A DNA stretch of 64,000 nt from the NCBI GenBank assembly GCA_013792135.1, contig VMSP01000110.1, positions 1-64,000 of the forward strand, written 5' to 3'. The stretch comes from Desulfocapsa sp. (lineage in GTDB: Bacteria > Desulfobacterota > Desulfobulbia > Desulfobulbales > Desulfocapsaceae). How positions within the stretch are numbered: position 1 is the first letter of the stretch; each line of letters starts with the position of its first letter. Below are positions 1 to 25,772 of the stretch, piece by piece. The notes under the pieces were generated by a model. That model had not been told where the DNA came from. It worked only from the letters and a program-made list of their open reading frames with translations, and did not search any database. The translations under genes and the position numbers were made by a program.

Positions 1-21
1 TATGACATGGTTCACATTCAA
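1..21 (-). other. Possible 5' edge of a minus-strand gene
   Basis: On the minus strand a strong Shine-Dalgarno-like GGGAGGAG (about 27-34) precedes a TTG codon at 21 with 7-nt spacing, and a GTG at 15 in the same frame. Only seven codons remain in the window, so no product can be named. Confidence 0.2.
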
Positions 22-229
22 AGTAACTCCTCCCTCATATTTGTAATATGAATCTTCTATCAGTTGCGGGAGGTGTTGTCCAGGATATAATGCAACTTGT
101 CGATATTGTTTTGTAAGCGAGTTAGGATAAATTCACCCTGGAAAACACCCTGACGCGCGGCGCTGGAAAAAGCACTTTGTTCAGGGTGTGTCTAGCTGTG
201 ATAGAGCGAAATGACGTTCTTTGTTCAGG

Positions 230-511
230 CTATTTGTAGAGGCAGAGATAAGCAGTTTCACCCTGAATGCGCACCCCAAATTTTACGTTGGCGGCCACTT
301 CAAAACCTTCATCTGCCATTATTGTTTGCCATTTTTCACTTTCTGGCAGTTTGACTTCCATGGTTCCGGAAATTACGGACATAATCTCCACAGAGCTAGT
401 GCCGAACTCATACTCTCCAGGTGCCATGACTCCTATGGTGGCTGGTCCTTCGGTACTGGTAAAAGCGATGGATTTCACTTTGCCGTCAAAATACTCATTA
501 GTTTTAAACAT
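230..511 (-). CDS. ppnP: Pyrimidine/purine nucleoside phosphorylase PpnP
   Basis: A 93-residue protein of the PpnP (DUF1255, YaiE) family, a small cupin that phosphorolyses nucleosides to a free base and ribose-1-phosphate in the cytoplasm. The full family length is present, with the N-terminal [11 protein letters not shown] stretch, the central [16 protein letters not shown] segment and the C-terminal YLCLYK typical of the family. AAGGAA lies 7-8 nt before the ATG at 511. It stands alone, with no nucleoside-salvage partner beside it. Family assignment is by sequence recognition and is fairly sure. Confidence 0.9.
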
Positions 512-689
512 TTTTTCTTTGTTCCTTGCGAGTTAGAATTGATGGAATCTGTTGAGTTCCAACGTTTGAAGAGAAATGTCATATAACTTGCCGTAAATAA
601 AAATTAAAAAGGCAAAATGTCAGTTAGCGACTTGAAAAATTTTTCAACAATCAGTCATCTTCGCGCAACCATGCGAGGAGGCCTGAATT

Positions 690-1000
690 ATGTACACTGG
701 AAAACTTATTTTCTCTCAAGTGATGGAGCATCTTCCACTTCATGTCTTTCATCAATGTGACGATCGCTATCACGGCGATTAGAAGGTCAAGGATTTTACT
801 TGCCTCGACCAGTATCTATGCATGGCCTTTGCTCAAATCACCTATCGCGAAAGCCATCGTGGTATCAAGGGCTTTCTTCATGCCCAAAAACAAAAACAAA
901 AACAAGCTCTACCACATGGGGTATCCGCGCTTCCATTTCTCGAAATACTCTGGCCAACGCCAACAAAGTTCGCGATTGGCCAGAGTTACCTAAATGTAAA
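690..1000 (+). pseudogene. Fossil N-terminus of an IS4-family (DUF4372) transposase
   Basis: GAGGAGG precedes an ATG at 690 that opens a frame reading MYTGKLIFSQVMEHLP, then a TAG stop, then DQYLCMAFAQITYRES and HRGIKGFL. The reading continues as KLYHMG in the second frame and GIRASISRNTLANANK in the third. These pieces, in order, match the N-terminal DUF4372 region of IS4-type transposases. The gene therefore carries one nonsense codon and at least two frameshifts, one inside a CAAAAA-repeat tract near 890-910. It stops after the VRDW segment; no catalytic DDE part and no terminal repeats were found. Confidence 0.75.
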
Positions 1001-1091
1001 ATCAGCTTTTGGCAGCCATTATGACATGGTTCAACCCTTGGATAATATCCGGGATGTGGGTCGTTATAAAGTATATTCCGGTGGACTCAAT

Positions 1092-1132
1092 AAAAAAACC
1101 AGGCATCCCTAAAGGGACACCCGGGTTTTTTT
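1092..1132. terminator. Bidirectional rho-independent terminator
   Basis: An 11-bp stem with two GU-type wobbles (1099-1109 with 1114-1124) has a 4-nt loop and is flanked by seven A on the left and seven T on the right. It can therefore stop transcripts on both strands. It sits just downstream of the SulP gene on the minus strand. Confidence 0.8.
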
Positions 1133-1155
1133 CAAAGCAGTATGTCTCGGGCTCA

Positions 1156-3303
1156 TTAGGCGGGGATATACTTTGTCAAAGGGCAGTCTCCACAGTTTGT
1201 AAGAGGCTGCTCGGTGTTGGAGTGAATCTCCTTGTAAATAGACTTGATTGCTGTTTCCGTATCAGGGAAAATAAAGTTTTTTCCGATTTTATTATAGAGA
1301 CCGGTTCGTTCCATAACAACTATGACCTGACCTTTGATACCGCACATGGCAAAACCGAGTTTGGCAGCACGCAAGCGGGCAACGAGCATGGCCAGTGCCT
1401 CTTCTCCCGAAGCATCCATGTCGTTGATACCCTTGGCATCAAGGAGGACGTAGCGCAAGTCGGGCTGTTCGGAACGGAACTTCATTACCTGCTCATCGAG
1501 ATAGCTGGCGTTGGCAAAGAACAGGGCACCGTCAAAACGGACCACCGAGATATGGCGGCAACCTTTTAAACGATAATGTTCAGCGCTTGTCAGGACATGG
1601 TCCTCATTCATGGAGAGAGAGGCAACTACCGGTCGCATGGACTTGTAGAGGAAGACCGCCATGGACAGAGCTACACCAACCATGATGCCCTTGTCAAGAT
1701 GGGGGGCAAAATAGAGGGTGACGAAGAAGGCGAGGATGGAGATAGCTCCATCGTACCACTGAGCCTTCCAGGCGTGGGCAAAACCCTTGATATTGAGCAG
1801 GCCGATAACTGCCATCATGATGACTGCCGCCAGGGTGGCCTGGGGCAGATGATAGAGCAGCGGTGTAAAGAAAAGGAGGGTGGCAACTACCATCAGGGAA
1901 GTGACCACCGAAGAGATACCGGAGACCGCACCGGCCTGCAGATTGACCGCAGAACGGGAAAAAGAACCGGAAACCGCGTAACTGGAGCTCATGGAGCCCA
2001 GCATATTGGCAAGCCCCTGGCCGATCAGTTCCTGATTGGGATCGAGTTTCTGGCCGGTCTTGGCAGCCATGGCCTTAGCAATGGCAATAGCCTCCATGAA
2101 GCCAAGCAGTGAAATGATAATCGCTGTGGGCAGCAGTTTGAAGAAACTCTTGCCGGTCAGGGCTGGTATGCTGAATTTGGGCAGCCCTTCAGGGATCTCG
2201 CCGATAATAGCACCACCGCCCATCATGGTGATTTTTTTTGAATCAAGAGCACTGTTTTTTACCTTGATCCTCCAGGTCGAACCATCACCCTGCAGACCGG
2301 CCGGGACCTGGCCTTTGGGATAGAAGGTAGATTTCTCTCCCTCTTTCACCGCTTCAAACTTCATGTGACGTAATTCATAACGGAAATCCTTGGCATGAGT
2401 TTGGGCCTCTTCTATTTCCGCGGTCAGTATGTCTACTTCGTTTTTTGCTTTGATCAGCTCGATAGCGGCCGCATGGCTGCCATGTTCGGCTTGCAGGGTA
2501 TCAACCTCTTTGCCCATCTGGGTACGCTCATCACTTTTCTCTTTGATCGCCATGATCGCCTGGTTGAACCCAGTCATGGTTTTTTCAATTCCGTCGATGT
2601 GGATAGATTCGGCCGGCACAGAGGCATCGTTGTTAAAATGGGTAAAATAAGAAAGCAGGGTGGTAATCACAACTGCAATCAGCACATTGGGAATCCGGGG
2701 ATTGATACGACGCACAACGACCATAATGGCCACTGCTCCAATGCCGTAAAGCAGGGTTGGAATATGCGTGTAGTCCATGGCCGCCTGGAATACAAGGATC
2801 ATGCTTTGATAGTGATGGTGTCCACTGTCTGTGTATACTCCGAAAAACTTGGAGAACTGGGAGGAGGCAATGATGATGGCAGCTGCATTGGTAAAGCCGT
2901 TGATTACCGGATGGGAAAGAAAATTAACCACCATGCCCAGACGCAGGACACCGAGAGAAAACTGGAAAATACCGACAACCAGGGCCAGGGCGATGGAGTA
3001 GGCAATAAATTCAGGGGATCCGGCCGAGGCCAGCGGTGCCAGAGAGGCTGCCGACATCAATGAAACAACGGCCACTGGACCGGTGCCGAGTTGGCGACTG
3101 GAGCCGAACAGGGCTGCAATCATCGGTGGCAGAAAGGCGGCATAGAGGCCGTAATAGGCGGGGAGGCCAGCCAGTTGGGCATAGGCCATGGACTGGGGAA
3201 TCAGCACCAAGGCCACCGTGATGCCGGCCACAAAGTCCAGCTTGAATTTACCGCCGCTATAGTCCTGAAACCAGGCTAAAAACGGGAAAATTTTTGTCAG
3301 CAT
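1156..3303 (-). CDS. SulP family anion transporter with C-terminal STAS domain
   Basis: A 715-residue SLC26/SulP-type inner-membrane carrier for sulfate, bicarbonate or a similar anion. The membrane domain begins with the family signature ALVLIPQSMAYAQLAGLP (residues about 31-48). A STAS domain follows at about 575-690, with DMDASGEEAL around the residue that is often phosphorylated. The protein is longer than the usual 550-600 because about 135 mostly charged residues (about 223-360), rich in coiled-coil-like heptads, interrupt the membrane domain. It ends with CGDCPLTKYIPA. It lies 130 bp downstream of the Hyf-like cluster on the same strand. The substrate cannot be read from sequence. Confidence 0.88.
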   Translation of the reverse strand: MLTKIFPFLAWFQDYSGGKFKLDFVAGITVALVLIPQSMAYAQLAGLPAYYGLYAAFLPPMIAALFGSSRQLGTGPVAVVSLMSAASLAPLASAGSPEFIAYSIALALVVGIFQFSLGVLRLGMVVNFLSHPVINGFTNAAAIIIASSQFSKFFGVYTDSGHHHYQSMILVFQAAMDYTHIPTLLYGIGAVAIMVVVRRINPRIPNVLIAVVITTLLSYFTHFNNDASVPAESIHIDGIEKTMTGFNQAIMAIKEKSDERTQMGKEVDTLQAEHGSHAAAIELIKAKNEVDILTAEIEEAQTHAKDFRYELRHMKFEAVKEGEKSTFYPKGQVPAGLQGDGSTWRIKVKNSALDSKKITMMGGGAIIGEIPEGLPKFSIPALTGKSFFKLLPTAIIISLLGFMEAIAIAKAMAAKTGQKLDPNQELIGQGLANMLGSMSSSYAVSGSFSRSAVNLQAGAVSGISSVVTSLMVVATLLFFTPLLYHLPQATLAAVIMMAVIGLLNIKGFAHAWKAQWYDGAISILAFFVTLYFAPHLDKGIMVGVALSMAVFLYKSMRPVVASLSMNEDHVLTSAEHYRLKGCRHISVVRFDGALFFANASYLDEQVMKFRSEQPDLRYVLLDAKGINDMDASGEEALAMLVARLRAAKLGFAMCGIKGQVIVVMERTGLYNKIGKNFIFPDTETAIKSIYKEIHSNTEQPLTNCGDCPLTKYIPA

Positions 3304-3433
3304 TTTTTCCTCTTCAATTAAATTTGGTTGGCCCGGAGGGTCGGTATAAAAAAGTTAGTACTTAGTTTTAGTAAGCCACTAATAATTGTAAGCTGCTTTT
3401 TCGATATTTATACATTCGGCATAGTCAGTGTAA

Positions 3434-4177
3434 CTATTTAAAATAATTCAGTAATGCATGAAGGGTGGTGAGCGGGTGAGGAGGACAGCCGGGGATGTAG
3501 AGATCCACCGGGATGATACTGTTCAAATCACCGATGATATCCTCACTGCCGAAAAAAGGGCCGCCGGAAATGGCGCAGGCACCGCTGGCGATGACGACCT
3601 TGGGGTTGGGAACTGCCTCAAAGGTGGTGATGGTGGCGGCTCGCATATTCTTTGAAATGGGTCCGGTGACATGGATGCCGTCAGCATGCCGCGGTGAGGC
3701 GACAAATTGGATGCCGAAGCGGGCAAGATCAAAAAAAGGGGTATTGAGTACGTTGGTGTCGGCCTCGCAGGCATTACAGCCGGCTGCCGAAATCTGCCGA
3801 AGCTGAAGGGAACGACCAAAGAGTTTTTTGAAATGCTTCTTGGAATGTTCGGCCAGCGCGGGCAGGTTACCCGTGGTAAAGAGATCGTCGCGGCTGGCGG
3901 TTCCCATCTCAAAATTCTGGCTGAAGGTGGCAAATCTGCCGCCGGACAAGGTCTCACACAGGCCACAGAACACACAACGGCCCAGATCGATCTTGCAGGA
4001 TTTCGCATCAATGGCGTCCTGGGGACAGGCATCAGCACAGCGTTTTACCAAGGCTGCATCACATTTAGCATCCACCTTGGGCAGACCTCGGAAACGCTTG
4101 TAGAGATTAATCTGCTCTTTCGGATATTTAGAGGTCCGGTGCCCCTGTTCTATTCTATTTTTTATAACTTTTAGCAT
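3434..4177 (-). CDS. Hydrogenase-4-like small subunit with ferredoxin domain (HyfI/NuoB-like)
   Basis: A 247-residue protein with an N-terminal ferredoxin-like region (about 35-90, with CADACPQDAID and CVFCGLC) and a NuoB/HyfI-like domain (about 105-247). The proximal [4Fe-4S] ligands are kept: GCNACE, SGACAISGG and PGCPPHP. It would pass electrons between the ferredoxin domain and the large subunit on the cytoplasmic face of the membrane complex. AAGG precedes the ATG at 4177. It is the last gene of the Hyf-like run, 143 bp after the large subunit. Joining ferredoxin and NuoB parts in one chain suits Ehr-type or group 4 complexes. Confidence 0.82.
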   Translation of the reverse strand: MLKVIKNRIEQGHRTSKYPKEQINLYKRFRGLPKVDAKCDAALVKRCADACPQDAIDAKSCKIDLGRCVFCGLCETLSGGRFATFSQNFEMGTASRDDLFTTGNLPALAEHSKKHFKKLFGRSLQLRQISAAGCNACEADTNVLNTPFFDLARFGIQFVASPRHADGIHVTGPISKNMRAATITTFEAVPNPKVVIASGACAISGGPFFGSEDIIGDLNSIIPVDLYIPGCPPHPLTTLHALLNYFK

Positions 4178-4320
4178 AGTAAAACCTTATTTTTTATCCT
4201 GAAGTTAAGGGATTTTTAGGAGCTGTTACGAAATGAACACTATTTTTCTTGTTCATTACGTTTGCGGCCCCTTATGCCGTCTCTAATATTCAAAAGACAA
4301 CAGTATCTTATTACAACGGC

Positions 4321-5826
4321 CTAGAGGTCAAACCCGCAGTAGGAAAGGTTGAAGCTCTTATTGCACAGGGGGAAGTCAGAAATCCCTTCATCGCGCAGAG
4401 ACAAGGCCAGACCGGTCCAGTTGTGAAAAGAGGGATCCTTCACCTTGTAGCGCAGGATGCCTCCTTTCTCATCGGTCAAGATACAGTGGGATACCTCTCC
4501 CCTCCAACCCTCGTTAATACTCACCACAAAGGACTGTGAAGCCAGTTGTATCTCCTGAGGCGTATAGCTTTGGGCCTCTTCCTTTCTGTCCAACAGGCTA
4601 GTAATCAGGCGGGTGGAGTGCATGACCTCTTCGCGCCGCACCCTGGCCCGTGAGCAGACATCACCATCGGTTCTGTTGTTGCTGTTGGCAGGGAGTCCAC
4701 CATAGCATTCCGTCGGAAAGCTGACCCTGGCATCATACTTCAGGCCACAGGCGCGGCCGGCGTAACCGACCAGTCCGATTTTTTCCGCATTCTCTTTGCT
4801 CACAATGCCGGTATTGTCAAAACGTCCGGTAACACTGGGGGAGGAAAAGATCAGCTCGCTGACATTTTCAACCTCAGGAGTAAGCTCGTCCAGCTTGTCG
4901 CGCAGCAGCTGTTTCTGCTCATCGCCCATAATATGGGTAACCCCACCTGCTCTTACCAGGCCACGGCCAAAACGGTTACCACCCAGGATTTGGCTCAGGT
5001 TGAGGTATTCTCCTCTGATCCGACCGAAATAGGCGGCCGGCGGACCAAAGGCCACGTCAATGCTGAGGGCACCCAGGTCACCGATGTGATTGGCGATGCG
5101 CTCAAGTTCGAGCGCGATGGTGCGGACTATCTTGGCGCCTTCATCCACCTGCAGACCTGCGAGGGATTCAATGGCCTGGGCTTGACAGAGGCCATGGCCG
5201 ATGGTGGTGTCGCCGGCAATGGTTTCGGCAATAATGGGCATCCTTTTCATGGGCACGCTCTGCAGCAGTTTTTCTACCCCACGATGCTGATAACCGAGCT
5301 GAATCTCGAGGTGAAAAACACGCTCACCGCAACATTGGAAGCGAAAATGACCGGGCTCGATTATGCCGGCATGCACCGGTCCCACCGCTACCTCATGGAC
5401 GGTTTCGCCCTCGACGCTGAAATAGGGGTAGTTACCCGGAATGTCCTGGTTATAGTCATTGTCAAAGACATCTTTTTTGCCGCTGCAGTTGGCATGGTAG
5501 CGCACCATCTTATACCAGGGGTGCCCTTCGGCCTTGAGTCCATACTGCTCGCCGATCTCACGCTCAAACATGTGGAATTTTTCCGACTCCGCGGTCAGCG
5601 AGGCAAAACTATCCGGGGCATCACAGCCGCCGACATAGAGCTTGTCGGTGCGCATGACGGCCAGCAGCTTGCTGACCCCCTGGTCCTCATAGGCAAAAAA
5701 CTGGACCACCTGTCCACCTGCCGCTGCACACGCCAGAAGTTGCTGGCGAAAGGTGTCAAAGGGGAGGTGGGGGATATCGGCCCGGTTCACTTTTTCATTG
5801 TTTTGTATGTGCAGCAACTTATCCAT
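4321..5826 (-). CDS. Hydrogenase-like large subunit lacking NiFe ligands (HyfG/NuoCD-like, Ehr type)
   Basis: A 501-residue protein with a NuoC-like N-terminal third (FEREIGEQYGL, HPWYKMVRY) and a NuoD/HyfG-like remainder. Start ATG 5826 has GGAGG 8 nt upstream and overlaps the end of the preceding gene by 8 bp; a longer frame to 5985 lies inside that gene. The two CxxC pairs that bind NiFe in group 4 hydrogenases are absent. The first site reads AGDTTIGHGLCQAQ, and the C-terminal site reads DPSFHNW instead of DPCxxC. It is therefore probably not a hydrogenase, but an energy-converting hydrogenase-related (Ehr) subunit of unknown electron donor or acceptor. Confidence 0.85.
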   Translation of the reverse strand: MDKLLHIQNNEKVNRADIPHLPFDTFRQQLLACAAAGGQVVQFFAYEDQGVSKLLAVMRTDKLYVGGCDAPDSFASLTAESEKFHMFEREIGEQYGLKAEGHPWYKMVRYHANCSGKKDVFDNDYNQDIPGNYPYFSVEGETVHEVAVGPVHAGIIEPGHFRFQCCGERVFHLEIQLGYQHRGVEKLLQSVPMKRMPIIAETIAGDTTIGHGLCQAQAIESLAGLQVDEGAKIVRTIALELERIANHIGDLGALSIDVAFGPPAAYFGRIRGEYLNLSQILGGNRFGRGLVRAGGVTHIMGDEQKQLLRDKLDELTPEVENVSELIFSSPSVTGRFDNTGIVSKENAEKIGLVGYAGRACGLKYDARVSFPTECYGGLPANSNNRTDGDVCSRARVRREEVMHSTRLITSLLDRKEEAQSYTPQEIQLASQSFVVSINEGWRGEVSHCILTDEKGGILRYKVKDPSFHNWTGLALSLRDEGISDFPLCNKSFNLSYCGFDL

Positions 5827-7246
5827 TAGAACTTCCTCCGATCGTGGCAATTGCCGAGAGAATTGTTTGATACAGGTTGTCCGGCATCCAGACACAGAGA
5901 ATGATTGAGGTAAGGAGCAGGGCATATGAGGGCAGCACCCTGGCCATATTTTCATCAACAAGGATCTCATCATCCCATTTACCAAAGCTCATCTTCATCA
6001 CCAGGCGGGAGGCCCCGGCGAAGATCAAAACAAGGGCAATAATAAAGATGCTGATGCTGATGGTTCTGCCTTTTTGAAAGGCCCCCAGGATAATGAGCAA
6101 CTCACTGACAAAGATACCAAAAGGGGGAAAACCAGAAATTCCGGCAAAGCCGGCAAAAAATGCGGTAAAGGTCTTGGGGAAGACCTTGGCCATATTGCCG
6201 GTCTTGCTGATCAACTTGCTGCCGTAGCCCAGCAGGATGTTGCCTGAGGACAAAAACAGGGATGATTTAATCAGCGAGTGATGGATAAGATGGAGCATGG
6301 CACCATAGGTAGCCAGGCCGCCGATCCCCACGCCAAAGGCAATAATGCCCATGTTTTCAATACTGGAATAGGCCAGCATCCTTTTATAACCGGTCTGGTT
6401 AAAGATGAAGACCGCGGCAACGAGCATGGACAGCAGGCCAAAGCCGATGAGGATATTTCCGGAAAAATCTCCGAGCCCTGCTTTGTAGAGGAGCTGATGG
6501 CTGCGATAGACACCGAGAAAGGCACAGTTGAGCAGCGCTCCGGAAAGCAGGGCCGAGGCGGGGCTGGGTGCCTCACTATGGGCATCCGGCAGCCAGGTAT
6601 GCATGGGAGCCAGTCCCATCTTGGTACCGTAGCCGATGACCAGAAAAATAAAACCGGCCTTGAGCCACATTGGGTCAAGTTGGGTCGCCACCACACTTAA
6701 GGCGCTGAAGGAGATCGGGACTTGGATATTACCGATATCCATGGCCAGGATGATGAAGAAACAACCAAGCAGGGCCAGGGCAATCCCCACAGAACAGATC
6801 AGGACATACTTCCAGGTCGCCTCCAGGGCCGACTTGGACCGGTTCAGGAAGATCAAAGGGGCACTCATCAGGGTGGTGGCCTCAATGGCAATCCACAGCA
6901 CTATCAGATGATCGGCCAGGGCCACCATGGACATGGTGGCCAGAAAGAACAGAGTGCAGCCGATATAGATGGGCTCACTTTGTATCTCAGTCTCGCTCAT
7001 GTAGGACACGGCATAAATCGAGATGAAGAGAAAAATAAACGAGGTGACCAGCAGCACCAGCAGGCCGTCCGGAGAGGCGGAAAAATATTGGGGCAGTCCC
7101 GGCGTTATCTTGCCCAGCCAGGCCATGATTGTTAACTGCAGGTGGAGTAAGGCTGTCACCACCAGGATTCCCCGGCCAAACCTGACGGGCAGGAACATGG
7201 CGATGATCCCGGTAAATATGGGGATGAGGCAGGTAAATTCTAACAT
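5819..7246 (-). CDS. hyfF: HyfF-like proton/ion-translocating membrane subunit
   Basis: A 475-residue, highly hydrophobic protein of the Mrp-antiporter/NuoL-M-N family, with about 14 predicted membrane helices. The stretch KMGLAPMHTWLPDAHSEAPS is the hallmark of this family, with the lysine and histidine of the ion path. YSSIENMGIIAFG and LIHHSLIKSSLF follow in the expected order. It would form one of the ion channels of the membrane arm. AAGGA precedes the ATG at 7246. It overlaps the large-subunit gene downstream and follows hyfE after a 226-bp gap containing a palindrome. Confidence 0.88.
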   Translation of the reverse strand: MLEFTCLIPIFTGIIAMFLPVRFGRGILVVTALLHLQLTIMAWLGKITPGLPQYFSASPDGLLVLLVTSFIFLFISIYAVSYMSETEIQSEPIYIGCTLFFLATMSMVALADHLIVLWIAIEATTLMSAPLIFLNRSKSALEATWKYVLICSVGIALALLGCFFIILAMDIGNIQVPISFSALSVVATQLDPMWLKAGFIFLVIGYGTKMGLAPMHTWLPDAHSEAPSPASALLSGALLNCAFLGVYRSHQLLYKAGLGDFSGNILIGFGLLSMLVAAVFIFNQTGYKRMLAYSSIENMGIIAFGVGIGGLATYGAMLHLIHHSLIKSSLFLSSGNILLGYGSKLISKTGNMAKVFPKTFTAFFAGFAGISGFPPFGIFVSELLIILGAFQKGRTISISIFIIALVLIFAGASRLVMKMSFGKWDDEILVDENMARVLPSYALLLTSIILCVWMPDNLYQTILSAIATIGGSSNG

Positions 7247-7381
7247 TGTTTTATATATCCTTACCTAAAGTGAAAATAAGCCGCTGTAAAAAAATAACAT
7301 GGCCATTTGAAAGTCAAAAACGGCAGTCGCTTTTCATCCATCCATGGCGCGAGCGACACTGGAGCATCCCTGCTCTGCGTA

Positions 7382-7435
7382 AGGAGCCGTAACGATATGA
7401 GTCTGAAATGGTTTAGTTATTTTGTAACGGCTCCT
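7382..7435. repeat. Palindrome between hyfF and hyfE
   Basis: A 9-bp perfect inverted repeat, aggagccgt (7382-7390) and acggctcct (7427-7435), lies inside the hyf-like operon. No T run follows, so it is more likely an mRNA processing or stability hairpin, or a repeat-element relic, than a terminator. A second small hairpin, gagca/tgctc, lies just to its left at about 7362-7375. Confidence 0.45.
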
Positions 7436-7472
7436 AAATATTGGCAACGACTCAGACATATTGGCGCCTTTG

Positions 7473-8126
7473 CTATTCCTTGAGTTGCCCAAGAAGGGCG
7501 GTATCAACATCATCAAAGGTGCTGTTGATATTGTTAAGGACAATCCCCATAATCATGATACCCACGAGCAGATCGAGTAAGACCCCGAATTCAACGATAT
7601 ACTGGGTATGGGTCTGCTTGGCCAGGGCGGTACCGAAGAGATAGATGCCGTTTTCCATCATCAGATAGCCGATGACCTGGGTTATGGCCTTATAGCGGGC
7701 CATGAGCAGAAAAAGTCCGGAGGCCAGGGTCGTAATGGCGGTAATCATCAGCAGCATATGCTCCCCGGGAAGAGATTGTGACGCATAGATCCGATCGGCA
7801 ATAAAGGCGGAAATGAGGATAAAGATCAGGCCGGTAAAGAGTGAGGCATGGTAGCCGATAATAGGTTCAATCTCGCGTCTTATCTTGATCTTTTTTACTG
7901 CCACGTAGATAAAGCCAGGAATAAGAAACCCTTTAATGAGAATCATGACCTGCAACATCATAATGGAACCAATGGTCATGTGCTGCTCAAGGAAAAGGGG
8001 AATGAGCGACACCACAATACCCTGAAAGGCCATAATCTTGACCAGGGCCACGAGCCGGTGCGAAGCCAGCGACAATAACACCGACAAAAGTGTAAGTGCG
8101 AGTAAGGCATTCGAAAAAGCAATCAT
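7473..8126 (-). CDS. hyfE: Hydrogenase-4 component E-like membrane protein (HyfE)
   Basis: A 217-residue membrane protein with about seven helices, matching HyfE, which carries a NuoK-like C-terminal half (YKAITQVIGYLMMENGIYLFG, then LVGIMIMGIVLNNI). The glutamate in the MENG segment corresponds to the conserved membrane carboxylate of NuoK. It is an anchor and proton-path subunit of the complex. Its start ATG (8124-8126) overlaps the stop of hyfC in an ATGA junction, a sign of translational coupling. Confidence 0.85.
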   Translation of the reverse strand: MIAFSNALLALTLLSVLLSLASHRLVALVKIMAFQGIVVSLIPLFLEQHMTIGSIMMLQVMILIKGFLIPGFIYVAVKKIKIRREIEPIIGYHASLFTGLIFILISAFIADRIYASQSLPGEHMLLMITAITTLASGLFLLMARYKAITQVIGYLMMENGIYLFGTALAKQTHTQYIVEFGVLLDLLVGIMIMGIVLNNINSTFDDVDTALLGQLKE

Positions 8127-9040
8127 TTGATCAACTCCATGGTGAGGATGGTGGCAAAAAAGACCAGGATAAAGGGAGTCAGGATAAATTTCGGCACCAT
8201 ATTCATCTTATATCTGGCGGTGATAGATTCCACCGTGCCGATGGTTATGTAGATAAATGTGACAACTGCATAAAAAAGCAGACCGTTGAGCCAGACGTTT
8301 TGCAGCTGGAAGGGGTCAAGAAGCATGGCTAGGAAGCCCGAGTAAAAAAGAAGCTTAAACCAGGCCCCCAGCTCGATTAAGGCCAGATCAGGCCCGCTGT
8401 GATCGAGAATCATGACCTCATGGATCATGGTGAGCTCAAGATGGGTGGTTGGATCATCTATTGGTACCCGTGAGTTCTCGGTGAGCATGACGATGTAGAG
8501 GGCGATGATGACCAGAATCAGCTGCGCCCCATGTGCACCGGTGATGGCGATGGGCTGGGTGCCCGTGAAAAATTCGGCAAAGCTCAAAGAGCCGGTGAGC
8601 CGGTAAAAGAGGACGAGGATACCAAAGATAGTGGCCTCTGCCAGAGTCGAGAAAAAGGCCTCCCGGGCAGCCCCCATACCCTCAAAGGGGGATGCGGTAT
8701 CGAGTGCGGCCAGGATGGTAAAAAAACGCCCCAGCCCCATGAGATAAAAAAGAATCAACACATCACCATGGAAGGAGAAGACAGGTGCCACGCCAGCCAA
8801 GGGGAAGAAAAGCAGCATCATCAGGCTGGTGGCACAACCCACCACCGGCCCCATCCGAAAGACAAAGGTGGTGCTGGTGCTATAGACCGAGCCTTTTTTA
8901 AAGAGCTTGGCCATGGTGTAGTAGTTGATCAGCAGTGGTGGTCCCTGCCTGCCGCCAAAATTGGCCTTTACCTTCTGGATGACTGCAGGCAGGAGGGGCG
9001 CTATCAGGATTGCGAAACAAAATGAAAATATGGATTCCAT
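8123..9040 (-). CDS. hyfC: HyfC/NuoH-like membrane anchor subunit
   Basis: A 305-residue, eight-helix membrane protein of the NuoH/HyfC/EchB family, which docks the large and small subunits to the membrane arm. Family signs are ARYKMNMVPKF near the C-terminus, NSRVPIDDPTTHLELTMIHE in the middle and GRQGPPLLINYY near the N-terminus. The acidic residues in ELTMIHE are part of the family's quinone/ion interface. GAGGT lies before the ATG at 9040. The gene follows hyfB by 117 bp and overlaps hyfE. Confidence 0.9.
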   Translation of the reverse strand: MESIFSFCFAILIAPLLPAVIQKVKANFGGRQGPPLLINYYTMAKLFKKGSVYSTSTTFVFRMGPVVGCATSLMMLLFFPLAGVAPVFSFHGDVLILFYLMGLGRFFTILAALDTASPFEGMGAAREAFFSTLAEATIFGILVLFYRLTGSLSFAEFFTGTQPIAITGAHGAQLILVIIALYIVMLTENSRVPIDDPTTHLELTMIHEVMILDHSGPDLALIELGAWFKLLFYSGFLAMLLDPFQLQNVWLNGLLFYAVVTFIYITIGTVESITARYKMNMVPKFILTPFILVFFATILTMELIK

Positions 9041-9157
9041 CTCTAACCTCGAATTTTTATGGTGCTCAAAAAGTGCGCCGGGCGTTTTATTGCCTCGGTG
9101 TTTTTAATTTTTATATGTCAGTTATCAAGTCTCGGCCGTCAGCAGGGTCGGAATCTG

Positions 9158-11116
9158 CTACAATAAAAGGAGCAGGATGATAATTGCCAGAACGATATAG
9201 GCAATATAGAGCTGAATCTTCCCGTGCTGGATCCAGCGCAACTTATTTATTAATTTGAGGAGCGGCTGGATCAGGTGCTGCTGGAAGTTTATTTCTGCCA
9301 CATCCTCCACATCTGTCTCCCAGGTTGTCTTGCCGGGGAAGATCTTGGAGATGCCGGTGTAGATACTCTTTACCGGTACAAAGGGCCGGTAAAAATCGAT
9401 AATCTCCGCGGCATAGGAAGTGCCGGTGTACTGCATGCGGACCGTGGGCTGGGTAAAACCGCAGCCCCAGGTGCCGCCGCTGCCAATCACTTTTTTCATG
9501 TACAGGATCTTCCGTAACAGGCTGATCAACAGCAAAAGGCCAATGAAAATGGCACCCGTCTGCGAGATCTGGCGGACGATTTCCATAAAGGCCTGGATAT
9601 CATAGCCGGCGGTATAAGGAATATCTTTGATTCCGGCGAAGGCGAGCCTGATAAAGGGCTCCGGAACAACACCGATCACGAGGCAGGCAATGGCCAGGAA
9701 GATCATGATCATAGTCATGGAAGAGCCAGCCTCAGTGGATTTGGCGGCATTCTCGGTACGCGGCTCCCCTAAAAAGGCCAGGCCAACCACCTTGGTAAAG
9801 CAGGCCGCAGCCAGGCCGCCGATGACCGCCAAAGAAACAATTGCCAGAATCGCCAGAATAAAGGGGATACGATGATTGTTGATGCCGTAGAAGGCCCCGT
9901 AGTAGATCAAAAATTCGCCGATAAAACCACTGAAGGGGGGCAGGCCGGAGATGGCAACAGAACCGGCAAGAAAGGTCCGGCCGGTGATGGGCATCCGTTT
10001 CATCAGGCCGCCCAGCTGGTCAATATTCTTGCTCTTGGCTTTGTGGAGCACGGCCCCTGCCCCCATGAAGAGGAGCGATTTGAATATGGAGTGGTTGAAG
10101 ACATGGAGAAAGGCGCCGGCAAAGCCAAAAAAGGCCATGGCCTGATTCTGCTCAGAGACGCCAACCATACCGATCCCTAACCCAATGAGGATGATGCCGA
10201 TATTCTCCACGCTACTATAGGCAAGGAGTTGCTTGATGTCTTGTTTGGCCAGGGCATAGACGACGCCGAGGACACCGGTAACCATGCCGGTTACCAGGAC
10301 GATCTGGCCAATCAGCGGCGTTGCGGCTTCAAGCAGCAGGTAGATCCGGAAAATTCCGTAGATGCCCATCTTGATCATTACCCCGGACATGATTGCCGAG
10401 ATATGACTCGGGGCGGCCGGATGGGCCTTGGGCAGCCAGATGTGGAGGGGAAAGATACCCGCCTTTGAACCAAAACCAAGAAAGGCCAGGATGAAAACCA
10501 GGAGCTTGGCGCCTTCAGGAATAGTCGAAAAACTGGAAAAAGCAAAACTGCCCGTGTAGTGGTACAAAAGGGCAAAGGCGGCAAAGAGGAGCATGGCACC
10601 GCCCTGGGCAAAGATGAAATAGAGGTAGCCCGCCTGACGGTTCTCCTTGACCTGATAGTCAAAGACCACCAGAAAAAAGGAGGAGAGGGACATTATTTCC
10701 CAGGCCAGGGCAAAGGTGACAATGTTTGCCGCCGTCACCACCAGGGCCATGGAGGCCACCAGAATAGCAAAAAAGAAATAGTTGACAGCGGTCCTGGTTG
10801 CCTTTGCTTTATCTCCCATGTAATGGAAACTGTAAAACAGGGCCAAAGGCGGGATGGTGAATATCGGCACCAGGAAAAAAAGAGCTATGCTGTCCACTTT
10901 GAAGGCCAAGGTAAAAATGTGGAGCCAGTTCCAGCTCTGCCCGATTGTCCCGGTATTACTCAGGAGATTGGTGAGGCTGTACACAAGGCCGAGAATACAG
11001 CCTGCACTTGTTGTGGCAATAGTGGCTAATTTCATCAAGGTAAACTGGCGGGCAAAAAGGAGTGCAGCAACTCCTCCCGCCAAGATTACAGCAAGTGACA
11101 CAAACATGGTGTCCAT
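9158..11116 (-). CDS. hyfB: HyfB-like (NuoL-type) ion-translocating membrane subunit
   Basis: A 652-residue protein with about 15 membrane helices, of the NuoL/HyfB type. The antiporter core has FGSKAGIFPLHIWLPKAHPA and YSSVENIGIILIGLG, and HVFNHSIFKSLLFMGAG follows. The C-terminal part has extra helices, a hydrophilic loop and a final helix, as in HyfB. GGAGGG precedes the ATG at 11116. It is the first gene of the hyf-like run and would pump H+ or Na+. The same protein superfamily includes DabB, which pairs with a carbonic-anhydrase-like subunit in DAB inorganic-carbon pumps; this matters because of the gene just upstream. Confidence 0.88.
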   Translation of the reverse strand: MDTMFVSLAVILAGGVAALLFARQFTLMKLATIATTSAGCILGLVYSLTNLLSNTGTIGQSWNWLHIFTLAFKVDSIALFFLVPIFTIPPLALFYSFHYMGDKAKATRTAVNYFFFAILVASMALVVTAANIVTFALAWEIMSLSSFFLVVFDYQVKENRQAGYLYFIFAQGGAMLLFAAFALLYHYTGSFAFSSFSTIPEGAKLLVFILAFLGFGSKAGIFPLHIWLPKAHPAAPSHISAIMSGVMIKMGIYGIFRIYLLLEAATPLIGQIVLVTGMVTGVLGVVYALAKQDIKQLLAYSSVENIGIILIGLGIGMVGVSEQNQAMAFFGFAGAFLHVFNHSIFKSLLFMGAGAVLHKAKSKNIDQLGGLMKRMPITGRTFLAGSVAISGLPPFSGFIGEFLIYYGAFYGINNHRIPFILAILAIVSLAVIGGLAAACFTKVVGLAFLGEPRTENAAKSTEAGSSMTMIMIFLAIACLVIGVVPEPFIRLAFAGIKDIPYTAGYDIQAFMEIVRQISQTGAIFIGLLLLISLLRKILYMKKVIGSGGTWGCGFTQPTVRMQYTGTSYAAEIIDFYRPFVPVKSIYTGISKIFPGKTTWETDVEDVAEINFQQHLIQPLLKLINKLRWIQHGKIQLYIAYIVLAIIILLLLL

Positions 11117-11342
11117 TTATTTCCCTCCAAATTTTTTATACGCTATCATACACGCGACGATAGCATGTAATGTCTTTTTTTATCTGTCATGGCGCGCAAC
11201 GCGCAGTAGCTTGCCTTGGCCATGTCCCTTTGGGGCAGGCTTTTTCCCCGCTCTCTCAGGCAGGAGTCAGGATGAGCGTACAGTTATTGTTACGAAAATG
11301 GGTAGGTTGTTAAAAAAAAACTGGGCTGAGTAACGGTTCTTA

Positions 11343-11466
11343 TTCTAAGTTGCATTCAATTCAAGACCGAGAAGACAAGCGAGCGGCGACGAAGCAGTAC
11401 GGGGTTGTACGGTGAGGAGCCGCACAGCGCAGTCGACGAAGGTATTGGTTTGAATGCGACTTAGAA
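11343..11466. repeat. Imperfect palindromic intergenic element
   Basis: The 375-bp gap upstream of hyfB (11117-11491) has no gene. It holds 22-nt imperfect inverted arms (11343-11364 and 11445-11466, sharing ttctaag and gcattcaa). They enclose an 80-nt GC-rich core with gtac palindromes and gaggagccgcac. The layout is that of a REP/MITE-like or structured-RNA element. The rest of the gap shows only the hyfB ribosome binding site. Confidence 0.5.
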
Positions 11467-11491
11467 TTATAACTTTCCTTGTTCAGCACAC

Positions 11492-12691
11492 TTAGTGAGG
11501 AGATCTGATATCAAAGCGGGGTGCCGCCAGCATTCTGTTGATCTCTTCTTTCAAGTCCCACTGATCCGGGTTGACGCTGGCCTGATCCATTAACAGAGAG
11601 AAGAGGCGATCCTGCTCAAGGGGCTTGATGTATTCTGTCGGGGTGTCGTCCTTGATCTGGATATGGGCAGCCCAGGGCACGAAATAGGTGGTTGCCGGAT
11701 GACCCTCATACTCGGAAATATCAATGTTAAGGCCGGCAATATAGAGGAGATTCTTGCCGGCATATTCGATCCCACGGCGGATGGACTCCACGGTACGGGC
11801 AAATTCAAGCTGGATATTGATCTTGGCCGCCCGCAGCGAAGGATTGCGCGAGGTGACAATGATCGGCATGAATTCGAAGAGGTTTCGTTCCAGGAGAATC
11901 GATTCATCGGTTTCGTGGAGATCTTCCCGGAAATAAAAGAGGTCTTCGCTCAGGTATTTACCCATACTCTCTCCTTCCCCGGTTTTCCATACATAGCCAG
12001 TGGCATCAATACGCTGGCGAAACTCTTCAGAAACCTCGTAGGTCTGGCTGGTGCTGATAGCGGAGACGGGCAGTATCTTACCGTTTTCGCTTATCTTGAC
12101 TATGTTTTCCAGATTGATTACCAAGCCATCTTTTACGGGATGTGATTCAAAATCAATAAAGGAGTTCTTTACGGTAATCAGGTAGGTGCCCTTATCATCC
12201 AGGTGGAGAAAGATCCTGTCCTTGGCAAAATGGTATTGCTCAAGATAGGGGGTGATCACATGGGCTATCTTCCCGCAGGAAGGAGTAATACAGATGCCAT
12301 CCATTTTGGGTCGGGTGCAATAGCCATAAACCCCGGTGTGAGGGTCGTAACCAACGTGACTGGCCTGAACAAGCACCGAATCTTCACCATGATGAGCATG
12401 AGGTCCGTGGCGGTCAACGGCGACAACCCCACCAACCCTGCCATGGTTAAAGGGAAAGGTGCCGAAATGTTTGGTCAGTAGGATAATGGGCCAGCCTTGG
12501 TTTTCGTCTGAGCAGAAGGCCCGGGAAGGCATGATCTTGCCTTTGCGAAAGCCTAAGGTCCTACAGAGATTGTATAACTTGGGGGCAAACTCCGCATAGG
12601 AAATTGTCCTGTCATCAATTCTGAAAGGGGCTAGCTTGCGAATAATGTTTGGTCTGCGAACAAAGCATGGCTTTTGATATTTATTTGGCAT
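11492..12691 (-). CDS. Conserved protein with LCIB-type carbonic anhydrase-like motifs
   Basis: A 399-residue cytoplasmic protein. ATG 12691 is chosen because AAGGA lies before it; an ATG 18 bp upstream has no such site. Residues about 60-145 show CSDE (C60), then HFGTFPFNHG, GGVVAVDRHGPHAHHG, ASHVGYD (H112) and TPSCGK (C139). This Cys-His-Cys order, with CxDE at the first ligand, resembles the zinc site of LCIB/theta-like beta carbonic anhydrases. The C-terminal 200 residues are unrecognised. It lies 375 bp upstream of the hyf-like cluster on the same strand. The enzyme call is inference from motif layout; catalysis is uncertain, since the arginine near the first ligand was not identified. 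Confidence 0.5.
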   Translation of the reverse strand: MPNKYQKPCFVRRPNIIRKLAPFRIDDRTISYAEFAPKLYNLCRTLGFRKGKIMPSRAFCSDENQGWPIILLTKHFGTFPFNHGRVGGVVAVDRHGPHAHHGEDSVLVQASHVGYDPHTGVYGYCTRPKMDGICITPSCGKIAHVITPYLEQYHFAKDRIFLHLDDKGTYLITVKNSFIDFESHPVKDGLVINLENIVKISENGKILPVSAISTSQTYEVSEEFRQRIDATGYVWKTGEGESMGKYLSEDLFYFREDLHETDESILLERNLFEFMPIIVTSRNPSLRAAKINIQLEFARTVESIRRGIEYAGKNLLYIAGLNIDISEYEGHPATTYFVPWAAHIQIKDDTPTEYIKPLEQDRLFSLLMDQASVNPDQWDLKEEINRMLAAPRFDIRSPH

Positions 12692-12887
12692 TTTTTTTAT
12701 CCTTGGCATTTTTTATTAATGACAACCCATAGCCACAAATCTTATTTTGAAATAAATCTTATTTTTAAATTTAGCCTTATGCCTTTGTTGTTCCATGAAA
12801 AAACGAGTAGATCTATTCTGGCCAGGAAGAAACCTTTCAATTGGAGCTTGGTGTTTCCAACGGTCTCCAAATACTTGTCGGCTTGAA

Positions 12888-14291
12888 TTAATTTTCCATC
12901 CTGAATGTTTTCAGGTCGATACCGTACTTATTGACTTTGTCGTACAGGCTTTTTCTTGAAATCCCAAGCTGACGATGTGTTGGGGGAATAAGCCCTTTTT
13001 CTTTACGCAAGACCTCTATAAGGTATTCTTTTTCTATCTGTTCCAGAAAAGATTTTAGCGGAATCGGGTGTGAAAGACTTTTTTGCACAATGTTATTTTC
13101 TTTTTCTGGACTGCTCTTCATTTTATCTTGAGCACCGAAAATGCAAATTCGGCGGACTTGATTCTTCAATTCCCTGATGTTGCCCGGCCAGTTATTTCGT
13201 TTTATCTGCTCAATGATTTCCGCTGAAAAAGGTTCCACGTTCAACAGCCTGTCATGGCAGTATTCCAGACGAAAATGTTCAACGAGCAAGGGAATGTCAT
13301 CTTTCCTTTCTCTGAGGGCCGGGGTTTTAACCGGGAGAACATTTAAACGGAAATAGAGGTCCTGACGAAATACTCCCCTGCGAATCTCTTGTCCCAGGTC
13401 TTTGTTGGTTGCGGCGATAATTCGTGCTCTGATGGGTATGGCAATATTACTTCCCAGGGGGGTTACTGATCTTTCTTCAAGAACCCGCAAGAGCTTGGAT
13501 TGAAGGTTGATGGGCATGCTGCAGATTTCATCAAGAAAGATTGTCCCATCTTCAGCATACTCAAACTTACCCTGTTTCTGCTGGATTGCTCCGGTAAATG
13601 CTCCTTTTGCATGACCGAATAGTTCCGATTCAATCATGTCGACGGGCATTGCCCCCATATTGATGGGGATAAAAGGTCTTCCGTAGCGGTTTCCGGCGTC
13701 ATGAATGGCGCGCGCTACAAGTTCTTTTCCTGTCCCGGTTTCTCCATAGAGCATAACCGGATCGTTTTCCTCGGCAACGGCTTCGATGATTTCGTACAGT
13801 TCCTGCATTATCGGATGACCGCCAACCAGTCCATGAAAATAGTACCCTTTGCGCTGATTTTTCAAGCGGTCATGGAGTTTCCGGTTTTCCATACCAAGTT
13901 GACGTTTTTCCACAGCCCTTTCAATGGAGGCGATCAGTACGTCTTCGTCTACCGGTTTTTGTAAAAAATCATAAGCCCCTTTTTTTATGGTGCTTACTGC
14001 CATTGCCACATCACCATGACCTGTTATCAGGATAACCGGAAGCTCGGTGTCGATTTCCTGGATATGCTGGAAGAGTTCGATGCCGTTCATGTGGGGCATT
14101 TTTATGTCGGCGATAACGGCTGAGTATGTCTTCTCGCTGATGGCGGCCAGGGCCTTGCCCGGTTCATTAAAGGTGTCTACGAGATAGCCGTTTAAGGTTA
14201 ACGTCTGTTTGATAGCGGCCAGCAGATAAAGATCATCGTCCACAACCAGCAGAGGGGCTGTGTTTTCTTTCTTTGCAAGGGGCGTTATCAT
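12888..14291 (-). CDS. Sigma-54-dependent NtrC-family response regulator
   Basis: A 467-residue activator with a receiver domain (residues 14-130, phospho-acceptor D62 in VIADIKMPHMNG), an AAA+ domain with Walker A GETGTGKE and the sigma-54 contact loop GAFTGA, and a C-terminal Fis-type helix-turn-helix (HRQLGISRKSLYDKVNKYG). ATG 14291 forms an ATGA overlap with the upstream kinase gene, so the two are cotranslated and almost surely cognate. A likely sigma-54 promoter lies across the divergent gap at 15769-15784. Confidence 0.93.
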   Translation of the reverse strand: MITPLAKKENTAPLLVVDDDLYLLAAIKQTLTLNGYLVDTFNEPGKALAAISEKTYSAVIADIKMPHMNGIELFQHIQEIDTELPVILITGHGDVAMAVSTIKKGAYDFLQKPVDEDVLIASIERAVEKRQLGMENRKLHDRLKNQRKGYYFHGLVGGHPIMQELYEIIEAVAEENDPVMLYGETGTGKELVARAIHDAGNRYGRPFIPINMGAMPVDMIESELFGHAKGAFTGAIQQKQGKFEYAEDGTIFLDEICSMPINLQSKLLRVLEERSVTPLGSNIAIPIRARIIAATNKDLGQEIRRGVFRQDLYFRLNVLPVKTPALRERKDDIPLLVEHFRLEYCHDRLLNVEPFSAEIIEQIKRNNWPGNIRELKNQVRRICIFGAQDKMKSSPEKENNIVQKSLSHPIPLKSFLEQIEKEYLIEVLRKEKGLIPPTHRQLGISRKSLYDKVNKYGIDLKTFRMEN

Positions 14292-15520
14292 ATGTTTCCT
14301 GAACGGTTTGCACATGGGGGTAAAAATATAAAGAATGAAGCGCCTCTTCCGGCTGGGCTTTCGACCTTTATGAATCCCGATAATCCTCGTATGATCCTGT
14401 CAACGATGGAGAGACCTAATCCCATTCCTGTCCCCACTTCACGGGTTGTAAAGAACGGGTCAAAAATTTTTCTTTGTATGTCAAGATCTATTCCTTCCCC
14501 GTTGTCTTGCACCTTGATACCGACAAAAGGTTTTTCCAGGAGGGTTTCAGGATCAATATGTGACTGAAGAAACGTTGTGATCGACATTCTGGGCTGATCG
14601 GTTTTCCCCATGGCCTGAATGGCATTCTGAATGAGATTCAGAAAAACCTGCTCCAGCTTGACTTCCTGTCCCAGAACAAGGGGCAGGCTGGTGTCGAGCT
14701 GGAGGTCTATTTCCACCTCCGACAGTGTCAGTTGTGATTGCAGAAACTTGAGAATATTTGTCAGGATTGCATTGACGTTAACCGGTGCTTTTTCATCTAT
14801 CGTTTTCCCGCCAAAGCTCTTGAGGCTTCGGATAATGGAGGAAGCCTTGTTCACCCGATCAACAATGATATTGAGATTTTCCTCCAGCATCGGTTTGTTT
14901 TTAACTGGATCTTCTAAAACCTTTAAACAGTTTCTGCTGAAAAGCAGTATGGCGTTCAGGGGTTGGGTCAGTTCATGGCCGATTCCGGCAGCCATTTCTC
15001 CAAGGCTCGCCAGTCTTACCGAATGAATAAGCTGTTCCTGCGCCTCATGCATGCGATTCATCATGGAGTAAAAATCACTCCTGTCCGTTGCAATCAGCAT
15101 ATGTAAAATGTTCCCGCACTCGGATGTATACGTTGATCCTTTAAGAGTAATCGGGATGTGTGTTCCTTGGTGATCAATGAGGTGTGTTTCAAGATTTTGA
15201 AATTCTCCTTTTTCCAGAGCGAGGCGGATAGAATCATATTCAACGTCGTCCACCAGGTCTGCCAGAGACAGATTTGTGCCATTTTCGTTACCATATCCCA
15301 AGATACGATAGAACTCTTGATTCGCCTGGACGAGTTGCAAGCCGTCTGTCAGGAGAAAAAAGAGGTCTGATAGGCTGGCAAGAATCTTGTTGGTAAATTC
15401 CTTTCCAGCCTCTACTTCTTCTTGTTTTCTCAGGAAACGGACAACCAAGTCCAGCTTCTGCTTCTCGAGAATCTCGATTAAACGATTGTCCGTTGGGCTT
15501 AAAAGCGTTCCTTTTTTCAC
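14288..15520 (-). CDS. Soluble PAS-domain sensor histidine kinase
   Basis: A 410-residue kinase without membrane helices. A coiled N-terminus leads into a PAS domain (about 45-165), a HisKA domain with the phospho-site in LGEMAAGIGHELTQPLN, and a HATPase domain with N box NLIQNAIQAM, DNGEGID and GTGMGLGLSIV. The start is a GTG at 15520 preceded by GGAG. It is translationally coupled to the sigma-54 activator downstream and would phosphorylate it in response to a cytoplasmic signal. Confidence 0.9.
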   Translation of the reverse strand: MKKGTLLSPTDNRLIEILEKQKLDLVVRFLRKQEEVEAGKEFTNKILASLSDLFFLLTDGLQLVQANQEFYRILGYGNENGTNLSLADLVDDVEYDSIRLALEKGEFQNLETHLIDHQGTHIPITLKGSTYTSECGNILHMLIATDRSDFYSMMNRMHEAQEQLIHSVRLASLGEMAAGIGHELTQPLNAILLFSRNCLKVLEDPVKNKPMLEENLNIIVDRVNKASSIIRSLKSFGGKTIDEKAPVNVNAILTNILKFLQSQLTLSEVEIDLQLDTSLPLVLGQEVKLEQVFLNLIQNAIQAMGKTDQPRMSITTFLQSHIDPETLLEKPFVGIKVQDNGEGIDLDIQRKIFDPFFTTREVGTGMGLGLSIVDRIIRGLSGFIKVESPAGRGASFFIFLPPCANRSGNI

Positions 15521-15768
15521 TATTGCACTCCGTTTGTCACTTCTAAGGGTACGAATTTACTCCGCAAGGCCTATGTTGTCAATATTTTTGCACACTATTT
15601 TTTTGTTGTGAATATACAGCTAGTTATCGTGATGCGTTGACGGGTTTGTCACTTTTTCTGCACGCAGTGGAGGTTTTTTGAGGATTCCCGCAGGGGGAAC
15701 TCTCGAAAAGAAAAGCTGAAGAGTTTGATATTGTACAATAAAATGTTTTTTTGGTTTTTCGACGAAGC

Positions 15769-15784: not shown

Positions 15785-15865
15785 TTAAGATAATCAGGTT
15801 ATGCTTTTTTTTATTGCCTGGAGAGACGTAAAAATTATCCTTTTCAAGGAAAGTAATAAGTCCCA

Positions 15866-25737: not shown

Positions 25738-25772
25738 GTGACGGCCGTGATGTTGGCTGAAGGTTAAAAGTG

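Follow-up and report, generated by a model that had tools for sequence, protein, structure and literature searches.

Ehr complexes are found in many lineages and, in Geobacter and Nitrospira, consist of Hyf/Nuo-type subunits without NiFe motifs. Their role has been called unknown or untested (PMC10284858, PMC7894505, PMC6349859), the function of the Nitrospira complex being termed unknown (PMC10284858), and in a Nitrospira genome with hyfB the NiFe motif is also missing and carbonic anhydrase is said to be absent. In the 64,000-nucleotide stretch of Desulfocapsa sp. analyzed here (the window; contig VMSP01000110.1, positions 1 to 64,000), the minus strand between 1156 and 12691 carries an Ehr cluster of six Hyf-type genes, likewise devoid of NiFe motifs, with a gene for an LCIB-type protein upstream and a SulP carrier gene downstream, all on one strand and at the place where the original prediction had located them.

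Two described systems, NDH-1MS with CupA/CupS and DAB/DAC/MpsAB, are functional analogues with differently built carbonic anhydrase parts. NDH-1MS is likewise a complex I-type pump, fed by ferredoxin and joined to a zinc carbonic anhydrase module. However, CupA is by description alpha-helical and unlike known carbonic anhydrases whereas the window protein is LCIB-like, NdhF3 has lost channel charges whereas HyfB keeps its pump residues, and NDH-1MS serves RuBisCO (PMC6981117). In DAB, a NuoL-type membrane protein is likewise combined with a beta-carbonic-anhydrase-like partner (PMC13144422). In contrast, the 399-residue window protein has no match to PF10070 (DabA) among Pfam hits up to E 1, and its neighbor is a complete six-subunit complex with iron-sulfur clusters. 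From other Ehr the locus differs by the gene-linked LCIB-type protein, often together with SulP or a beta-carbonic anhydrase. With LCIB and LCIC, the beta-carbonic anhydrases of algae and diatoms, the protein shares the predicted fold and the Cys, Asp-Glu, His and Cys-Gly motifs, which are in register with PtLCIB4, but it is longer (399 residues vs. 284 in the longest PtLCIB4 chain), bacterial, and encoded beside an ion pump.

The carbonic anhydrase/“formate hydrogenlyase” locus reported from Desulfocapsa sulfexigens (PMC10880623) is very likely the same kind of cluster, since four genomes of one genus have a beta-carbonic anhydrase gene immediately behind HyfI. The neighborhood of carbonic anhydrase and formate hydrogenlyase/dehydrogenase genes is called hard to understand in that paper; its main text is without any mention of LCIB and its section 7 is silent on the loss of NiFe ligands in the large subunit. 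That account is extended here by the LCIB-type protein, by the absence of a NiFe site and by the wide distribution of the link. Among the papers listed from the open-licence literature, often a small part of those retrieved and judged by titles and the starts of abstracts, none was found to describe the pairing of LCIB with Ehr/Hyf.

The Cys-His-Cys layout (C60, H112, C139), from which the original prediction had set out, is strictly kept. Cys60, Asp62, His112, and Cys139 are invariant both in the 38 sequences of a first alignment (A1; the window protein and 37 orthologs at 62-88% identity) and in the ten of a second (A2), which includes homologs at 28% and 21% identity. In the search of the PDB, PtLCIB4 was the first match of the A2 profile (E 0.0018), the alignment bringing the CSDE, SHVG, and CG motifs into register; the A1 profile also placed it first, but non-significantly (E 0.21). 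Cys60, His112, and Cys139, with Asp62, are the predicted zinc ligands, by correspondence to the Cys/His/Cys and Asp of the zinc site of PtLCIB4. In the A2 profile alignment, the invariant His98 was aligned by eye with His88 of PtLCIB4.

An LCIB-like fold, on which the original prediction had staked its case beforehand, was retrieved by both structural searches. The best AlphaFold2 model (mean pLDDT 73.8, pTM 0.75) has as its top seven Foldseek chains PtLCIB4, LCIB, LCIC, and 6kfs (“CCM related protein”), five of them at E <= 0.001. In VIA-align, five PtLCIB4/LCIB/LCIC entries and 6kfs reach Z 13.8-16.9 and all other rows remain at 5.0 or below. The best match is PtLCIB4 (PDB 5b5y; Z 16.9, 221 residues, root mean square deviation 3.5), and the identity across such matches is only 10-13%. 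Thus modeled, the 399-residue protein has the LCIB fold. Structures of CupA, DabA, and canonical beta-carbonic anhydrases do not appear among the VIA-align rows, which does not exclude them, and nothing in a viral structure library matched at E <= 0.001. The protein has no match to PF00484 (Pro_CA) among Pfam hits up to E 1. Its match to the Pfam LCIB_C_CA model (PF18599) is sub-threshold (17.1 bits vs. a cut-off of 25, E 0.0034), and judged by the curated model it is a diverged relative and not a member of that family. The same model found no match in the host genome, but none in control genomes either, and is thus uninformative on absence; homolog profiles were used in its place.

A length of 399 residues is favored over 405, as homologs share the same ATG start. 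The protein is likely soluble, because its most hydrophobic 19-mer averages only 0.96 on the Kyte-Doolittle scale. Most of the residues that it has beyond LCIB lie in the well-predicted segment 152-265. Searched alone against the PDB, this segment had no convincing match (best VIA-align Z 2.9), which does not show a new fold; it might serve for docking.

The six Hyf-type subunits follow the order HyfB, C, E, F, G, I according to Pfam and NCBIfam, with HyfB matching hydrogenase 4 subunit B at 1.7e-166, below the model cut-off, and with HyfG starting most likely at 5826. For the survey of residues, loci were chosen by identity cut-offs and some of them overlap. Across 64 HyfG sequences, NiFe-type CxxC pairs are kept at neither site while other residues are fully conserved. 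In the window, Ala/Thr and Ser/Gly stand at these positions, in an alignment by eye to the CxxC motif positions of Escherichia coli HycE. By its sequence, the complex should not make hydrogen, and an identity as formate hydrogenlyase or hydrogenase-4 was rejected on account of the missing ligands; the earlier description of a six-subunit Hyf/NuoL-type complex without a NiFe site is thus borne out. In contrast to the NiFe site, the electron and ion paths are retained. Nine HyfI cysteines (C47, C51, C68, C71, C74, C134, C137, C201, C231) are invariant in 72 sequences, as are E140, K218, and K249 of HyfB in 59 (K442 in 95% of them) and E122 and K209 of HyfF in 63, the Glu and Lys being at positions expected of antiporter-type subunits. 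The conservation of these cysteines and charges indicates that electrons can probably enter the complex and that ions can probably be moved by it.

The linkage was followed in 93 genomes of the family, 242 of the order, and a phylum sample of 297, and the near Ehr type was defined as HyfI at >=65% identity. The tallies include fragments at contig ends (G025, G067, G391, G539) and, for the LCIB-like gene in the family, matches with one internal stop (G032, G051, G054). In the family, the LCIB-like gene was matched in 44 of the 93 genomes (36 of those at >=60% identity) and the near Ehr type in 52. Where both occur, the LCIB-like gene and HyfI are <=15 kb apart in 29 of 36 genomes, always on the same strand, and in four of the remaining seven HyfB still comes after it before the contig ends (L012, L019, L020, L091). 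In the order, 67 genomes have the LCIB-like gene, 88 the near Ehr and 54 both, and all 41 adjacent pairs, from 40 genomes, are on the same strand. By Fisher's test, the co-occurrence has p = 1e-18 when genomes are counted and 2e-8 when genera are, the count of genera removing only part of the effect of relatedness. Of the 22 genera in which the LCIB-like gene occurs, 20 have this Ehr type; among all 68 genera the figure is 29. The co-occurrence that had been predicted for related genomes therefore holds across the order. In the phylum sample, the LCIB-like gene is rare (7/297).

In 20 of 24 loci from named genomes, HyfB is next downstream on the same strand, a small opposite open reading frame (ORF) in L041 being ignored. 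As for the other four, L045 and L051 are without HyfB there, L060 ends at a contig edge, and L058 is interrupted. In L058/L102 (one region) and in L101, an EIIA/HTH gene lies between the LCIB-like gene and the HyfB of a diverged Ehr. Among 16 loci of the diverged type (HyfI ~50% identical), 13 have no LCIB-like gene and L101 and L102 have it, whereas in L096 it sits in a neighboring cluster of the near type. In four genomes of genus g227, the LCIB-like gene is found instead 292-346 bp downstream of HyfI, which is an indication that the link survived rearrangement. Diverged LCIB-like homologs (25-33% identity) occupy the same slot in L085-L089. As a control of position, CdhD was used, with one place taken for each of 83 genomes; its co-occurrence is uninformative because nearly all genomes of the family (89/93 above the cut-off) have it. 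Among the matches listed, CdhD was <=15 kb from none of 51 HyfI, 42 LCIB-like, 44 SulP, and 35 beta-carbonic anhydrase genes. The linkage of the LCIB-like gene and Ehr is not due to chance. Two tandem LCIB-like copies precede HyfB in one relative (L047 5281-8374; L193 is the same region).

The carrier that had been named a SulP transporter is one by its domains (Sulfate_transp 1.2e-100 and STAS 4.7e-16 in Pfam) and by TIGR00815, whose cut-off of 380 bits it exceeds. Its orthologs were surveyed from rows at >=64% identity (50 places in 49 genomes), with distances taken between match ends and not gene ends. In 11 of the 28 genomes with both, the SulP ortholog adjoins a beta-carbonic anhydrase on the same strand, with 41-76 bp between the matches. 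In four genomes (G009, G014, G017, G023), a beta-carbonic anhydrase directly follows HyfI, with 377-500 bp between the matches. Where SulP itself is close to the LCIB-like gene or Ehr, its position varies. It comes after HyfI in the window and its near relatives; L061 and L062, in which no LCIB-like gene was found, have it before HyfB; and in G026 it belongs to a succession of Ehr, LCIB-like gene, two-component pair, SulP and beta-carbonic anhydrase inside 15 kb. Away from Ehr, the LCIB-like gene adjoins SulP in L174 and L198, and also in L195, where the contig ends soon after; in L182 it lies between two carriers matching Na_sulph_symp and CitMHS. These arrangements are most readily understood as exchangeable inorganic-carbon parts grouped around an ion pump. 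The membrane domain of the window SulP is interrupted by ~130 extra residues (231-362), which give weak coiled-coil-type matches. Distant LCIB-like homologs (27-28% identity) in L092 and L104 adjoin related carriers without Ehr, the one of L092 matching both CitMHS and Na_sulph_symp.

The host genome contains DsrA (578 bits, cut-off 393), CdhD of the Wood-Ljungdahl pathway, and one ordinary beta-carbonic anhydrase on another contig. No RuBisCO was detected in it above the cut-off, the best RuBisCO-type match (21.4 bits vs. 30.1) not being counted. This gene content fits an autotrophic sulfur or sulfate bacterium.

On balance, the locus probably serves a Wood-Ljungdahl sulfur bacterium, in which no RuBisCO was detected, as a module for the supply of inorganic carbon, and its parts would have the following roles. 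Electrons would enter Ehr by way of the iron-sulfur clusters of HyfI, supplied by a low-potential donor that is probably ferredoxin, and HyfB and HyfF would move ions across the membrane. The LCIB-type protein would be a cytoplasmic zinc carbonic anhydrase, made together with the pump and interconverting CO2 and HCO3- at or near it, and SulP would most likely be an HCO3- carrier powered by the ion gradient. The module would govern how much CO2 reaches formate dehydrogenase, CODH/ACS, and pyruvate synthase and how much HCO3- reaches biotin carboxylases. Since the carboxylating enzymes of the Wood-Ljungdahl pathway use CO2, HCO3- import through SulP with interconversion by the LCIB-type protein is favored over a pure accumulation of HCO3-. 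The inorganic-carbon module as such, which the original prediction had proposed, is well supported and is strengthened because, in relatives, beta-carbonic anhydrase genes adjoin the same Ehr or the SulP ortholog. A strict analogy to DAB and NDH-1MS is disfavored by the unpaired genes described below and by the pump residues kept by HyfB, and the original interpretation is thus supported in part.

The repeated adjacency of LCIB-like gene and pump suggests that the pump helps sulfur bacteria apparently without RuBisCO to handle CO2. For one Ehr branch, the conserved association with an LCIB-type protein, with beta-carbonic anhydrases and with a likely bicarbonate carrier offers a testable function, inorganic-carbon handling, and it could be tested in culture because Desulfocapsa-type relatives carry the cluster. 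If the explanation is true, energy-linked carbon supply extends from RuBisCO-based cells to Wood-Ljungdahl sulfur and cable bacteria, and the LCIB fold, best known from algae, enters a bacterial bioenergetic gene cluster.

Several observations weigh against this explanation. In the case of the LCIB-like protein, the best AlphaFold2 model lies well above the other four (51.4-61.6 pLDDT) and is weak at residues 64-67, 79-94, and 129-136, close to the predicted site. Moreover, the sequence C60-S-D62-E63-N64 has no Arg where the CxDxR motif of classical beta-carbonic anhydrases has one. In CxDxR enzymes this Arg pairs with the Asp (C351/D353/R355 in DabA2; PMC13144422), and another Arg could fill the dyad role with Asp62. 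As regards the linkage, 13 of the 67 genomes with the LCIB-like gene are without this Ehr, among them G474 in a five-contig assembly, and 34 of the 88 with Ehr are without the LCIB-like gene, including 12 of genus g19 and 3 of g20. Three single-contig genomes (G028, G037, G038) have Ehr with no LCIB-like gene before HyfB, and Ca. Electrothrix aarhusensis (L051) has no HyfB beside its LCIB-like gene, while another Electrothrix (L046) has it. Genomes within a genus are related, so the counts are not independent. Neither gene being obligatory for the other, a strict DAB-like pair is only one reading. The SulP is far below the NCBIfam BicA equivalog cut-off (140 of 880 bits) and could carry sulfate, and it is <=15 kb from the LCIB-like gene in only 7 of the 25 family genomes with both, in two of them on the opposite strand. 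Finally, the beta-carbonic anhydrase placed directly after HyfI is confined to one genus and is farther off elsewhere, for instance 13.8 kb in G026 and downstream with other ORFs between in L194.

A more ambitious form of the explanation, put forward only tentatively, would add one more kind to the energy-coupled (vectorial) carbonic anhydrases. In it an LCIB-type enzyme, unrelated to CupA, outside the DabA family and with relatives in cable bacteria, would be docked on an Ehr driven by ferredoxin in anaerobes without RuBisCO. The mechanism that it would entail, with the LCIB-type protein as a peripheral subunit on HyfB, the pumping by Ehr removing the proton of hydration and HCO3- accumulating against its gradient as in NDH-1MS and DAB, is the less likely reading. 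The short distance to hyfB (13-85 bp in some relatives), the same-strand linkage, the conserved pump residues and iron-sulfur ligands and the extra well-predicted segment, which could dock, are consistent with it. Against it, the partner is obligatory in neither direction, HCO3- would be the less useful product with Wood-Ljungdahl enzymes using CO2, and NdhF3 of NDH-1MS has lost the charged channel residues (PMC6981117) that HyfB keeps. If it is true, a function is assigned to one branch of Ehr complexes.

A link to formate is unlikely. The cluster would then be a formate hydrogenlyase or a complex of formate dehydrogenase with Ehr, and the carbonic anhydrase would convert formate-derived CO2 to HCO3- for a formate:bicarbonate exchange, as suggested for carbonic anhydrases beside formate hydrogenlyase and formate dehydrogenase genes, with Desulfocapsa sulfexigens named (PMC10880623). 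Geobacter Ehr is abundant on formate (PMC7894505), and complexes of formate dehydrogenase and Ehr have been proposed (PMC6349859). Furthermore, in L037, L041, and L052 the second gene upstream of the LCIB-like gene encodes a molybdopterin oxidoreductase, and the same protein (92-96% identical) is encoded at 25814-28663 of the window. However, it falls far short of the cut-off in every formate dehydrogenase model shown (249 of 666 bits for Fdh-alpha), whereas the thiosulfate reductase PhsA model scores higher (313 of 694). HyfG without NiFe ligands speaks against a hydrogen-evolving lyase, and no formate carrier was seen, although no search was aimed at one.

A role of the LCIB-type protein in hydrolyzing some other small molecule, for example COS or CS2, in a sulfur-cycling cell is quite improbable. 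The bacteria are sulfur bacteria by their DsrA, clade D of the beta-carbonic anhydrases includes COS and CS2 hydrolases (PMC13098186) and the canonical Arg position is not kept; but the fold groups with LCIB, and the neighbors identified are carbonic anhydrases, SulP, other carriers and Ehr, not known sulfur enzymes. A chance neighborhood of unrelated genes, to which the proximity of SulP in only part of the genomes could point and which may apply to SulP in any single genome, is refuted for the LCIB-Ehr pair by the 41 same-strand pairs, the link retained after reordering in g227 and the CdhD control, and is very improbable as a whole.

Table 1. Features of the locus and of its upstream neighborhood in the window.
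Feature	Position	Strand	Basis
LCIB-type beta-carbonic-anhydrase-like protein, 399 aa	11492..12691	-	Pfam weak match, PDB profile, AlphaFold2, invariant residues
Residues 152-265 of the LCIB-like protein, well-predicted segment	11897..12238	-	pLDDT 84.3
HyfB-like (NuoL-type antiporter) subunit, 652 aa	9158..11116	-	Pfam Proton_antipo_M 4.2e-58
HyfC-like (NuoH-type) subunit, 305 aa	8123..9040	-	Pfam NADHdh 6.2e-28
HyfE-like (NuoK-containing) subunit, 217 aa	7473..8126	-	NCBIfam hydrogenase 4 membrane subunit 5.7e-20, below cut-off
HyfF-like antiporter subunit, 475 aa	5819..7246	-	Pfam Proton_antipo_M 1.7e-47
HyfG-like large subunit (NuoC/NuoD type), ~501 aa, no NiFe-binding CxxC pairs	4321..5826	-	Pfam Complex1_49kDa 1.7e-30
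HyfI-like small subunit (ferredoxin-type domain fused to NuoB-type domain), 247 aa	3434..4177	-	Pfam Oxidored_q6 5.1e-25
SulP-family anion carrier with STAS domain, 715 aa	1156..3303	-	TIGR00815 432 bits
NtrC-type sigma-54 response regulator	12888..14315	-	Pfam
Histidine-kinase-like ORF	14288..15520	-	Named from sequence by eye; overlaps regulator gene

The response regulator upstream is a possible regulator of the cluster, and pairs of histidine kinase and response regulator are frequent next to Ehr in relatives. The gap between the LCIB-like gene and HyfB is 375 bp in the window, against the 13-85 bp of some relatives (stop codon included). It contains a 33-nt inverted repeat (11336-11473; 82% complementary) whose copies are separated by 72 nt and which resembles a small mobile element; the 15-base core of the repeat has no second copy in the window at <=2 mismatches. 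A terminator-like consensus match is found 3′ of SulP (1124-1099), in a total of 19 such matches where 13.3 are expected, and Rfam gave no family above threshold within 1-16000.

In the near relatives G083 and G085 (L163, L164, L096), a second, diverged Ehr (38-54% identity) directly follows SulP, which results in tandem pump clusters. A small conserved protein of ~80-95 residues is located just before HyfB or the LCIB-like gene in several loci (L066-L069, L072-L074, L055, and others). Its homologs number 33 loci, some overlapping, with two copies in L068; the window contains no homolog at E below 0.4, and the L055 copy has no Pfam match.

At 24079-28663 the window carries a TorD-like/molybdopterin oxidoreductase fusion (949 aa) and a GAF-PAS sensor (552 aa), ~11 kb away from the LCIB-like gene; the same two genes (87-96% identical) precede the LCIB-like gene in L037, L041, and L052. 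In genus g9 (L132 2057-3463, L142, L177), a hexapeptide-repeat protein of 469 residues (left-handed helix type) precedes the LCIB-like gene. In L038 (119-7596), complex I membrane genes, NuoH to NuoN as judged from a look at the sequence, lie directly upstream of the sensor/LCIB-like/Ehr cluster.

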